Assembly (NCBI GenBank): GCA_002254885.1
Contig: NJDG01000003.1
Span: 1 to 51,393 of the forward strand
Origin: Thermoplasmatales archaeon ex4572_165
Lineage (GTDB): Archaea; Thermoplasmatota; E2; DHVEG-1
DNA: 51,393 nucleotides
Reading direction: 5' to 3'
Shown here: positions 14,101-18,717 of the stretch, one piece after another
Position numbering within the stretch: the stretch's first letter is position 1
How the letters are laid out: every line of letters starts with the position of its first letter
Translations under genes and position numbers: made by a program
The notes under the pieces: generated by a model
Told to the model about the DNA's origin: nothing
Database searches by the model: none
The model's input: the letters and a program-made list of their open reading frames with translations, nothing else

Positions 14101-14194
14101 TAATGGTTAGACTAATATTTTCATATGTCTTGTCTCTAACAAATAGGTAAACTTATTTATTTGCTTTTGATATCACCATTTGATCTTAACGATT

Positions 14195-14968
14195 ATGAAT
14201 GAAATGGAATTAAATCAGGTACGGCACCCAAAAAAACAGGCATTACAAACAAATATCTCTGGATTTGATGCATTATTCAATGACGGAGGCATACCAACAG
14301 GAAGTACTGTACTTATTGCAGGTAGTACAGGTACCGGTAAAAGTACATTATGCAGACAAATATGTTATAATGCCTTAAAGTCTGGATCTCGTTGTATGTA
14401 TGTGAGTTTTGAGGAAAGTAAACAACAGATCATGGAAAGTATGCAATCATTTGGATGGAATGTATCAGAGTTTGTTGAATCGGGTCAATTTGTTATCCAA
14501 AATATTAACCCACTTGATATACTTAGAATGAAATTTGGATCTCTTGGCGGATCTGGCTCTGCAACTGAGCTTTCATCTAAGGTAAAACCACTTGTTATTC
14601 CTACTGAGTTAAATCCTGAGATTATTGTTGTTGATTCATTAAGTGCTATTATTGCAGCATCTCTAACAAAAGAGAAAAATTATCGTGTTTATCTTCAGCA
14701 GCTATTTTCCTTTTTTAAAGATACCAAGGCAACCTCTTTACTTGTTACTGAAACGGGTCCAATTCCAATCCGTTTTAGCGAAAGCGGAATAGAAGAATTT
14801 CTTGCAGATGGTATTATTGTTCTTTACAATATTCAAAAAACTGAGGGGAAAGTCAACGCTCTTGAAGTATTAAAAATGAGATATGGACAACATTCAAAAC
14901 ATATTGTTGAAATGAATATTACTCAAAATGGCATTGAAGTGTTTCCTGATAGAAACATTACAATTTAA
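14195..14968 (+). CDS. KaiC-like RecA-family ATPase, catalytic glutamates present
   Basis: A single KaiC/RadA-type domain with Walker A GSTGTGKST at residues 43-51, the paired glutamates of the family in YVSFEESKQQI, Walker B EIIVVDSLSAII, and the C-terminal FSESGIEEFLADGIIVLY and LKMRYGQHSK typical of archaeal KaiC homologues. The ATG at 14195 is preferred over a TTG at 14180. Such single-domain proteins occur in many archaea, often near signalling or surface-appendage genes; individual roles are mostly unknown. A second, more divergent paralogue lies 430 bases downstream. Confidence 0.85.
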   Translation: MNEMELNQVRHPKKQALQTNISGFDALFNDGGIPTGSTVLIAGSTGTGKSTLCRQICYNALKSGSRCMYVSFEESKQQIMESMQSFGWNVSEFVESGQFVIQNINPLDILRMKFGSLGGSGSATELSSKVKPLVIPTELNPEIIVVDSLSAIIAASLTKEKNYRVYLQQLFSFFKDTKATSLLVTETGPIPIRFSESGIEEFLADGIIVLYNIQKTEGKVNALEVLKMRYGQHSKHIVEMNITQNGIEVFPDRNITI

Positions 14969-15400: not shown

Positions 15401-16177
15401 ATGAAGATGCAAGAGGAAACATATCAATCAGAAAAATTTATAATAGTTAAAACAGGCGTAAATGGCCTTGATGATCTTATCGAAGGAGGCTTTCCAGAAA
15501 AATCAATTACCCTTGTCTCAGGATCACCAGGAGCCGGTAAAAGTATTCTCTGTTTCCAATTCATATATGAAGGAGTCAATAATGGAGAAAATGTGCTTTA
15601 TCTTACTTTGGATAAAAGAGAAGAAGGAATCCTGCTCCAAGCAAAAAAACTTGGATATGATTTTCAACCAGCAATCGAGAATGGGCAAGCCACATTTCGC
15701 TATCTAAATATTAATAAAAAACTTGTTTATGAAACTATGAGCAACGAAATTTTATCTGGAAAATATGATAGAATTGTTCTTGATTCAATCACACCGCTCT
15801 CAGAAATGCCATTATTTTTAGCCGATACACAGAACAATATGAATGGATCCGGATATAGCTTTGTAGATACAGAAAATCAATCAACAGGTTTATCAGGACC
15901 TGTGCAACGAAAACATATCCTTTTTATCATGAATGCATTAGAATCATCTGAGGCAACAACCATAATAACATCAGAGTTATCATTAAGTTCATCAAACCTT
16001 TCAAGAGATGGAATTTCTGAATTTCTTGCAGATGGAGTCATTCTTTTAAAAGCAGATCCCACAATGGATCGAAGAAAACTCTCTATTTTTAAAATGAGAA
16101 ATACAAAACATACACTAAAACCACAAGACATTCAAATAAATGAAAATGGAATTACACTTGTAAGAAAAACCATGTAA
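15401..16177 (+). CDS. KaiC-like RecA-family ATPase with altered catalytic position
   Basis: Walker A is GSPGAGKS at residues 41-48 and Walker B is RIVLDSI at about 124-130, followed by the family's FLADGVILLK and KMRNTKHTLKP. Where active paralogues have the catalytic pair FEE after the second strand, this protein reads LTLDKREEG, so the two glutamates are shifted or replaced by Asp-Lys. ATP binding is likely; hydrolysis is less certain. That recalls FlaH, the KaiC-like archaellum protein. Function and partner are unknown; the pilin-like gene and the first paralogue upstream are the natural candidates. Confidence 0.82.
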   Translation: MKMQEETYQSEKFIIVKTGVNGLDDLIEGGFPEKSITLVSGSPGAGKSILCFQFIYEGVNNGENVLYLTLDKREEGILLQAKKLGYDFQPAIENGQATFRYLNINKKLVYETMSNEILSGKYDRIVLDSITPLSEMPLFLADTQNNMNGSGYSFVDTENQSTGLSGPVQRKHILFIMNALESSEATTIITSELSLSSSNLSRDGISEFLADGVILLKADPTMDRRKLSIFKMRNTKHTLKPQDIQINENGITLVRKTM

Positions 16178-16749: not shown

Positions 16750-16757
16750 TTTAAATA
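16750..16757 (+). promoter_or_regulatory. TATA box of the S10/spc ribosomal superoperon
   Basis: TTTAAATA, preceded by purine-rich GGGACAACA, predicts a transcription start near 16776. That falls at the first arm of a long-range stem (GACATT at 16774), so the leader RNA would begin with its own closing helix. The ribosomal operon starts at 16958. Confidence 0.5.
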
Positions 16758-16773
16758 TCACCTTCTTATATGC

Positions 16774-16881
16774 GACATTCCTCGTCTATACCAGACATTT
16801 ACTTGGGCAATTTCATTTATGAAATCCCAATAACAAGTAATCGACAATAATTGTTTGATTTCTGATTACATGGGAAATGTC
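16774..16881 (+). promoter_or_regulatory. Structured leader RNA of the ribosomal protein operon
   Basis: No gene lies between 16666 and 16957. Within this stretch GACATT (16774-16779) can pair with AATGTC (16876-16881) and enclose two hairpins. The first, 16803-16830, is a stem of five plus seven perfect pairs (TTGGG/CCCAA and ATTTCAT/ATGAAAT) with a two-base bulge. The second combines TAATC/GATTA with ACAAT/ATTGT around 16838-16867. Ribosomal operons are often controlled by a product binding its own leader (L4 and S8 in bacteria, L1 in archaea), so an autoregulatory site is the natural hypothesis. Nothing in the sequence names the ligand, and A/T-rich hairpins can arise by chance. Confidence 0.45.
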
Positions 16882-16957
16882 ACGGTGTAAACAATATACA
16901 ACTCATAATTTGAAGAAATACAATCTTAAAATAAAAGATTAATTGAGATGAAAAACA

Positions 16958-17950
16958 ATGCCTGGAAACCATCATCCAAGAAGAGGATCAATGGGGTATT
17001 CTCCTCGTAAAAGAGCGCGAGCTGAGACCCCTCACATAAAGAATTGGCCAAGTGGCGGAGATACACCGAAAATTCAGGGATTCCTAGGATATAAAGCTGG
17101 GATGACGCATGCATTTGTTGTTGATTATAGACCAACATCAACAACATCAGGCAAAGAAGTCATGATGCCTGTTTCAGTAGTAGAAGCTCCCCCTATAAAA
17201 ATCGCTGCGATTCGTTCATATAAGAAAACTATTCATGGACTTGAAACTATCAGCGAAATATGGTGCAATAAACTTGATTCCGAATTAGCAAAGCGAATTT
17301 CACTTCCAAAAAACAAAGTGAAAGAAAATTGGGACTTTACAAAAAATGCTGATGATATTCGTGTACTTGTCTATACTCAGCCAAAACTTGTAACAGGTAT
17401 CCCTAAAAAAGTTCCCGAGATTCGAGAACTTCGCATTAGCGGCGGATCCATTGATGAAAGAATCAATTATGCAAAAGAGATTCTTGGTAAAGAACTCAAA
17501 ATAGAAGATGTCGTTAGAGAAGGAGATATGCTCGATATTCTGGCCATCACTAAAGGAAAAGGATTTCAGGGCCATGTGAAACGATGGGGTGTTAAACTTC
17601 TAACTCACAAAAACTCAAAACATCGAAGAATGATTGGTACCGCAGGTTCATGGCACCCTAATTGGATTCAGCAGACAGTACCACAAGCCGGTCAGATGGG
17701 ATATCATCAAAGAACTGAATATAACAAACGTGTTCTTAAAATCGGAGATAATGGTGATGATATTACGCCTGCTGGTGGTTTTCCCCATTATGGAAATGTA
17801 AGAAATTCATATGTTTTAATTCATGGATCCATTCCTGGTCCATCAAAACGTTTGATTAGCATGCGTGATGCAATTCGTTATAAACGTGGTGTTAAAGTTG
17901 AAAAACCAGAAATTACGTATATTTCAAGTACGAGTAAACAAGGAGTATGA
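16958..17950 (+). CDS. rpl3: Ribosomal protein uL3
   Basis: First gene of the operon, 330 residues, archaeal/eukaryotic L3 type. Signatures include PRRGSMGYSPRKRA, GFLGYKAGMTHAF, the GKGFQGHVKRWG loop and GTAGSWHPNWIQQTVPQAGQMGYHQRTEYN near the peptidyl transferase centre, here quoted in part only as GYHQRTEYNKR. It folds early into the large subunit and contacts 23S rRNA. Its stop overlaps an in-frame ATG of the L4 gene. Confidence 0.97.
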   Translation: MPGNHHPRRGSMGYSPRKRARAETPHIKNWPSGGDTPKIQGFLGYKAGMTHAFVVDYRPTSTTSGKEVMMPVSVVEAPPIKIAAIRSYKKTIHGLETISEIWCNKLDSELAKRISLPKNKVKENWDFTKNADDIRVLVYTQPKLVTGIPKKVPEIRELRISGGSIDERINYAKEILGKELKIEDVVREGDMLDILAITKGKGFQGHVKRWGVKLLTHKNSKHRRMIGTAGSWHPNWIQQTVPQAGQMGYHQRTEYNKRVLKIGDNGDDITPAGGFPHYGNVRNSYVLIHGSIPGPSKRLISMRDAIRYKRGVKVEKPEITYISSTSKQGV

Positions 17951-17955
17951 TCATC

Positions 17956-18717
17956 ATGGAAAAAGTAAACGTTTATGGAATTGATGGATCAGAAAAAGAA
18001 AAAATTACTCTTCCAGGAGTATTCAATATAACGATTCGACCTGATATTATTCAAAAATCATTTAGTGTTCTTCATTCAAATAGAAGAACGCCGTATGGTG
18101 CCAATAAAGACGCAGGAACAAAACATGCCACTGCATCTGTTGGAAAAGGAAAAGGAATGTCACGGGTTCCACGTTTGACTCAAGGTGGGAAAGCCGCGCT
18201 TGCACCCTGTGTTGTTGGTGGTCGACGTGCACATCCACCTACATCCGATCGCATATGGACCGAAAAAATCAATTTAAAAGAAAAGAGACTTGCAAAACAT
18301 TCTGCACTTGCAGCTACTGCACAAAAAGAGATTGTTGCTAAAAGAGGACATAAGTTTCAAGATTCAGTTACACTTCCCATCATCGTTGAAGATGCTTTTG
18401 GTAAACTTACAAAAACAAAAGATGTCCTTAATTCTTTTGAGAAAATTGGAATTATTGATGATGTTGATCGATCAAAGAATGGTACACATATACGAGCTGG
18501 AAGAGGTAAATCTCGTGGTCGTAGATATAAAACTCCAAAATCAATATTGATCATTTCAACAAATGAAGAAATTAAAAAAGGTTCCAGCAATATTAGTGGG
18601 GTTGATGTCGTTTCACCAAAGAATCTAAACATTGACCATCTTGCACCAGGGGGAACGAGTGGTAGACTTACAGTTATCACTCAATCTGCTTTAACTGTTC
18701 TTGGGGGTAAAAACTAA
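17956..18717 (+). CDS. rpl4: Ribosomal protein uL4
   Basis: Large-subunit protein lining the exit tunnel. The tunnel loop region reads HATASVGKGKGMSRVPR and GGRRAHPPTSDRIW, as in archaeal L4; the C terminus ends NIDHLAPGGTSGRLTV. I prefer the ATG at 17956, ten bases after GGAG; an ATG at 17947 overlaps the L3 stop and leaves no room for a ribosome-binding site. It ends with a one-base overlap to L23. L4 is a possible regulator of this operon by analogy with bacteria. Confidence 0.96.
   Translation: MEKVNVYGIDGSEKEKITLPGVFNITIRPDIIQKSFSVLHSNRRTPYGANKDAGTKHATASVGKGKGMSRVPRLTQGGKAALAPCVVGGRRAHPPTSDRIWTEKINLKEKRLAKHSALAATAQKEIVAKRGHKFQDSVTLPIIVEDAFGKLTKTKDVLNSFEKIGIIDDVDRSKNGTHIRAGRGKSRGRRYKTPKSILIISTNEEIKKGSSNISGVDVVSPKNLNIDHLAPGGTSGRLTVITQSALTVLGGKN

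Follow-up and report, generated by a model that had tools for sequence, protein, structure and literature searches.

The sequence ahead of the ribosomal protein L3 gene in Thermoplasmatales archaeon ex4572_165 (contig NJDG01000003.1; the whole analyzed stretch of 51,393 nucleotides is called the window below) raises the question of whether the transcript of the ribosomal superoperon begins with a structured leader RNA and, if so, what such an RNA would do. A sequence-only reading of the window had proposed a leader of this kind and had named compensatory changes in relatives as the test. We found such changes both in pair counts and against a tree-aware null, and the proposal is now strongly supported by covariation across relatives. 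The segment is a real, conserved, phylum-wide leader RNA that has no Rfam entry, and it is a new form of an already known type of control; our coverage of prior accounts was that of the open-access literature, so an account published elsewhere is possible.

Two covariance models of the leader were used for whole-genome scans made without use of L3: R1, built from 29 leaders, and the broader R2, built from 81 leaders. The features of the locus, with the helices numbered P1 to P3, are as follows.

16750-16757, + strand: TATA box TTTAAATA in the promoter of the L3 operon, matching TTTAWATA in 8/8 positions, 33 bases ahead of CCAGAC
16779-16896, + strand: leader RNA, whole covariance-model match (R2 68.2 bits; R1 81.6 bits, E 4.7e-20, a score that is not independent, as the window sequence is one of the 29 training sequences of R1)
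16784-16788, + strand: 5' strand of the P1 outer stem (columns 6-10 of alignment A2), lineage-variable, pairing with 16888-16892
16790-16798, + strand: 5' strand of the P1 core, ACC-A-GACAU, with A16793 unpaired
16803-16830, + strand: P2 hairpin, UUGGG-CA-AUUUCAU/AUGAAAU-CCCAA, with a conserved CA bulge (consensus GGGCAAU...CCC), present in the consensus, in covariation and in the minimum-energy fold
16834-16872, + strand: P3 hairpin, CAAGUAAUC...GAUUACAUG, 9 pairs, every one with double-sided changes; absent in several lineages
16877-16886, + strand: 3' strand of the P1 core, AUGUC-AC-GGU, with A16882 and C16883 unpaired; ACGG occurs in 80/81 aligned leaders
16888-16892, + strand: 3' strand of the P1 outer stem, with double-sided changes
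16947-16953, + strand: probable Shine-Dalgarno site for L3 in the vicinity of GAGATGA, shortly ahead of the start codon at 16958 (ATG) and identified only by inspecting the sequence
16958-17950, + strand: ribosomal protein L3 gene, first of the superoperon (Pfam PF00297, E 2.8e-90)
17947-18717, + strand: ribosomal protein L4 gene (Pfam PF00573, E 9.3e-37)

In the window, L3 and L4 are followed by the remaining superoperon, and the order L3-L4-L23-L2 was observed downstream of the leader wherever the sequence was long enough. Upstream of the operon, two different KaiC-family ATPase genes lie close together (14180-14968 and 15401-16177).

The fold of 16779-16896 is a three-way junction with P1, P2 and P3 as its arms. 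In full, P1 is formed by UAUACC-A-GACAU with AUGUC-AC-GGUGUA, and P2 by UUGGG-CA-AUUUCA with UGAAAU-CCCAA. The internal loop of P1, A on one side and AC on the other, is enclosed between CC-GG and NAC-GUN'. In the 81 leaders, the P1 core reads CC-A-N-AC opposite GU-N'-AC-GG, with CC and AC near-invariant and with N-N' being G-C in 70/81, U-A in 8/81 and A-U in 1/81. P3 is missing in L063, L066, L067, L054, L055, L061, L136 and L137; since a group of lineages does without it, the minimal form of the element consists of P1 and P2. Where P3 is present, the 3' side of its loop (16843-16863 in the window) tends to UUYU ahead of the stem, a trend which suggests a tertiary or protein contact.

Some details of the sequence-only reading had to be revised. 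It had closed the structure with the GACATT at 16774-16779, which turned out to be the wrong copy, situated at or before the expected transcript start and not conserved in relatives. The true partner is the second GACATT (16794-16799), which relatives retain in the form ACCAGACAT and which forms its stem with ATGTCACGGT; the minimum-energy fold also closes with this copy and with UAUACC/GGUGUA, not with the copy at 16774. The inner hairpin of twelve pairs, placed at 16803-16830, does have twelve complementary pairs and the two-base CA bulge, but the innermost pair leaves a loop of 2 bases, so eleven pairs are realistic. The start noted near 16776 is close to the one near 16780 that we expect from the geometry of the promoter, with the TATA box at 16750-16757 as the reference point and not a mapped start.

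A TATA box matching in at least 7 of 8 positions was found upstream in 75 of the 81 aligned leaders, at a median distance of 36 bases from CCA, compared to 33% for shuffled upstream sequence. Since the box is just upstream, the operon transcript would have the leader element as its 5' end, and transcription is expected to start at P1 or immediately ahead of it. A scan for promoters and terminators of the bacterial type gave nothing informative. In a side clade of other Thermoplasmata that lacks the leader RNA, the same TATA box is positioned 25-49 bases from the L3 start. Because this clade keeps the box near L3, the leader constitutes an insertion between promoter and gene.

The evidence for the structure comes from comparisons of relatives, starting with a set of L3 leaders from 80 loci located via the L3 protein. 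The motif CCAGAC...GTCACGG was common to 29 close and distant leaders, and GGGCAAU...CCC was present in nearly all 29. For these leaders, RNAalifold and pair counts produced the same three helices, with 21/30 pairs changed on both sides. Among the 81 leaders, double-sided changes were seen in 26/30 pairs (575 such cells compared to a shuffle mean of 193), and the covariation score was 0.507, compared to 0.153 for shuffled data and at most 0.098 with the partners slid. The 81-leader alignment was fitted to the structure; therefore, we added an R-scape-like null in which the inferred substitutions were replayed along the tree. All ten column pairs with E < 0.05 in this test were pairs of the structure; they came from all three helices and included the core pair G16794-C16881 (E 0.017), which other lineages replace by U-A or A-U. 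The P1 outer stem had double-sided changes in the pair counts, while its pairs were individually borderline in the tree-aware test. In a structure-blind MAFFT alignment, the significant pairs (4/4) were again pairs of the structure.

The R1 model had matches in 163 of the 390 Thermoplasmatota genomes, and the R2 model in 287 of 390, with a single copy in 286 of these 287; the sole genome with two R2 matches, G239, has one of them at a contig end. We fetched 70 matches (L085-L114 and L119-L158). In each of the 69 whose flank reached the next gene, this gene was L3, located directly downstream on the same strand (L156 was too short to tell, and L131 reaches only the L3 N-terminus). Some lineages within the same class were shown by the R2 scan to lack the element.

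In the acidophilic Thermoplasmatales (L068, L069, L071-L076, L078, L081-L083), we observed AGCC-A-CACGUC...GACGC-AACGGCU within the last ~110 bases before L3. Read by eye, it looks like a derived form of the leader. The covariance models scored this form poorly or missed it.

Several other explanations of the element have to be weighed against this evidence. The structure had been described as more than base composition would produce by chance; for the single sequence, the folding signal is modest, as one would expect if it were a chance structure of AT-rich intergenic DNA (for 16779-16896, z is -2.57 and 2 of 200 shuffles were as stable; for the entire leader, z is -1.58). Across relatives, however, the covariation is decisive: seen phylum-wide in three helices, it refutes a chance structure, to which we assign practically no weight. 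The compact fold and a TATA box of its own could also belong to an independent small RNA gene located ahead of L3 by coincidence. Such a gene is very unlikely, because the element essentially never occurs elsewhere in the 390 genomes and its strand is always that of L3. Besides, several clades have P1 running into the ribosome-binding region of L3, inspection of 16897-16957 of the window revealed no T-run terminator, and the RNA-less clade has the promoter directly at L3.

The idea that the element is a riboswitch or another sensor of a small molecule or ion, e.g. Mg2+, draws on the strictly conserved bases of the internal loop and on the three-way junction, which are also typical of aptamers, as well as on the fact that binding of an r-protein is not a requirement for cis-regulators of ribosomal genes (PMC7247131). 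We regard a sensor as unlikely, since the element is found ahead of one r-protein operon only and since the loss of one of three arms in whole clades would be unusual for an aptamer junction. Comparison with the riboswitches and leaders of Rfam gave chance-level matches only and thus no riboswitch; there was no Rfam match at gathering score in the window and no leader match in 17 loci of relatives.

From the observed structure and its place we infer, with a probability of about 0.7, that the element is an r-leader, i.e. that a product of the operon binds it and that translation of the operon is thereby repressed. An operon product present in excess over rRNA would bind the core, made of the P1 internal loop and P2 with GGGCAAU. 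The bound protein would lock P1 and hinder ribosome loading at L3, with less translation of the operon as the result. In clades whose P1 borders directly on the Shine-Dalgarno sequence, a direct block would result, with the protein-closed P1 covering the ribosome-binding site. The distance between the conserved ACGG and the L3 start is 13-20 bases in the eight f36-type leaders tested (for example, ACGGUUGGUGAUAAAAAAUG in L126), and in this group a GGUGA-type Shine-Dalgarno sequence directly follows ACGG; the distance is 19-22 bases in Thermoplasmatales and L022. The window's own family, with about 58 bases between P1 and the Shine-Dalgarno sequence, has a gap of 52-84 bases from ACGG to the L3 start, and no conserved route to the Shine-Dalgarno sequence was detected there. 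For this family, sequestration of the Shine-Dalgarno sequence by the 5' segment of the leader was considered and rejected, as the pairing was not conserved (p 0.28).

The most likely ligand is uL4, an assignment that we make tentatively. It is favored because the known ligands of r-leaders recur, while the gene adjoining a leader is a poor guide to its ligand (Eckert and Weinberg, PMC7247131); in bacteria, uL4 is the established ligand of this operon. A close candidate is uL3, encoded by the first gene of the operon and an early primary binder of rRNA, and we consider it a possible ligand. Broken gene order did not separate the two proteins, since L3 is always followed by L4.

We also compared the leader with rRNA in terms of sequence likeness, which is distinct from three-dimensional mimicry. 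The best local match in 23S rRNA, GGGCAATGC in H96, was equalled by 50 of 300 shuffles, and a model search against 16S rRNA and the rRNA loci gave no meaningful match: the one in the rRNA locus of the same genome was on the strand opposite to 16S and is attributed to chance, and the other rRNA loci had none. Mimicry of a uL3 or uL4 site on rRNA was suggested by the recurrence of GGGCAAUGC and ACCAG in 23S H96 of a sister genome. It was rejected, as the likeness was not significant, the pairing within H96 seems to be different and other relatives show variation in the motif.

Among known systems, the E. coli S10 leader is likewise a long structured 5' UTR of an L3/L4 operon and is controlled by an operon product, as proposed for the archaeal leader; bound by uL4, it acts through Rho-independent termination as well as through translation (PMC10931766). 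It is, however, another RNA, and its type of terminator was not seen in the Thermoplasmatota leader. Autoregulation by an archaeal r-protein on its own mRNA, predicted for the leader described here, has been shown for uL1 and predicted for the eL15 and S15 leaders (PMC10931766, PMC7247131). Those sites belong to other operons and other RNAs and resemble rRNA, while the Thermoplasmatota leader does not detectably do so. Archaeal L7Ae, another r-protein, uses a structure in the leader of its own mRNA for repression, namely a kink-turn (PMC5539422); on inspection, the Thermoplasmatota leader has an internal loop of the one-by-two type and shows no consensus of a kink-turn.

The claim that no such leader had been described for an archaeal S10-type operon does not hold, since the L4-Archaeoglobi leader (RF03135), located ahead of rplC-rplD-rplW-rplB, was already published, with a rating of borderline by its authors (Eckert and Weinberg 2020, PMC7247131). 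It precedes L3-L4-rplW-rplB and, by eye, looks similar to the Thermoplasmatota leader in layout and core motifs: its P1 contains an internal loop and carries GCGUNAC in the 3' strand, its P2 contains GGG(U)CAA, and there is a third hairpin. On the other hand, it was published for Archaeoglobi, and the RF03135 model is blind to the Thermoplasmatota RNA. RF03135 also matches haloarchaea (Natronorubrum, and Haloferax volcanii among the controls). In Natronorubrum bangense (NZ_CP031306.1, locus L170), the RF03135 match is at 1943-2042 with 74.6 bits.

The Thermoplasmatota leader may belong to the RF03135 family, which would be too old for one covariance model and would predate the split of Thermoplasmatota and Halobacteriota; this is a tentative refinement of the r-leader reading. 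It is supported by the same position in the operon, the same three-way junction and the motifs GACGC, GGG(U)CAAU and GCGUNAC, which by eye look alike in both. Moreover, the best R2 match in the Natronorubrum locus, a weak one (1937-2047, 8.7 bits, E 0.58), coincides in stretch and strand with that of RF03135; this is suggestive only, since the E value is poor and the match drops to second rank within 21 kb. Conversely, the RF03135 model at its gathering cut-off of 34.5 bits had matches in 0/18 and 0/390 Thermoplasmatota genomes, and none of its sub-threshold loci was near L3, so weak matches elsewhere could not serve as a bridge between the families. The Natronorubrum match is also inside the coding sequence of a PF02598 methyltransferase, a gene that ends four bases before L3, and protein conservation may shape it.

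The haloarchaeal leader may be embedded in this RNA methyltransferase gene, or the covariation there may reflect protein coding. Listed as a plasmid on deposition, the replicon NZ_CP031306.1 contains the entire ribosomal superoperon from L3 to SecY (255000-276000, locus L172); either the record is mislabelled or the replicon serves as an essential second chromosome. A contig of the IMG/VR viral collection, IMGVR_UViG_3300027017_000121 (L171), encodes a full ribosomal protein L3 at 242-1384 (PF00297, E 1.2e-157) and is probably cellular contamination.

It is possible, though doubtful, that one leader RNA has controlled the L3-L4 superoperon of archaea since before the separation of Thermoplasmatota and Halobacteriota, and that RF03135 is the branch of it found in Archaeoglobi and haloarchaea, in the latter situated within the methyltransferase coding sequence. 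If true, this leader would rank with the most widespread r-leaders of archaea and might be the first to respond to uL3.

While r-leaders are usually confined to narrow lineages (Eckert and Weinberg, PMC7247131), the Thermoplasmatota leader spans most of a phylum, and few archaeal cis-regulatory RNAs are known. If the r-leader reading is right, the element controls the largest ribosomal-protein operon. The P1 loop together with P2 makes a well-defined minimal site for probing how archaea balance r-proteins with rRNA, and the leader allows one to ask which protein acts in archaea, uL3 or the uL4 that regulates this operon in bacteria.
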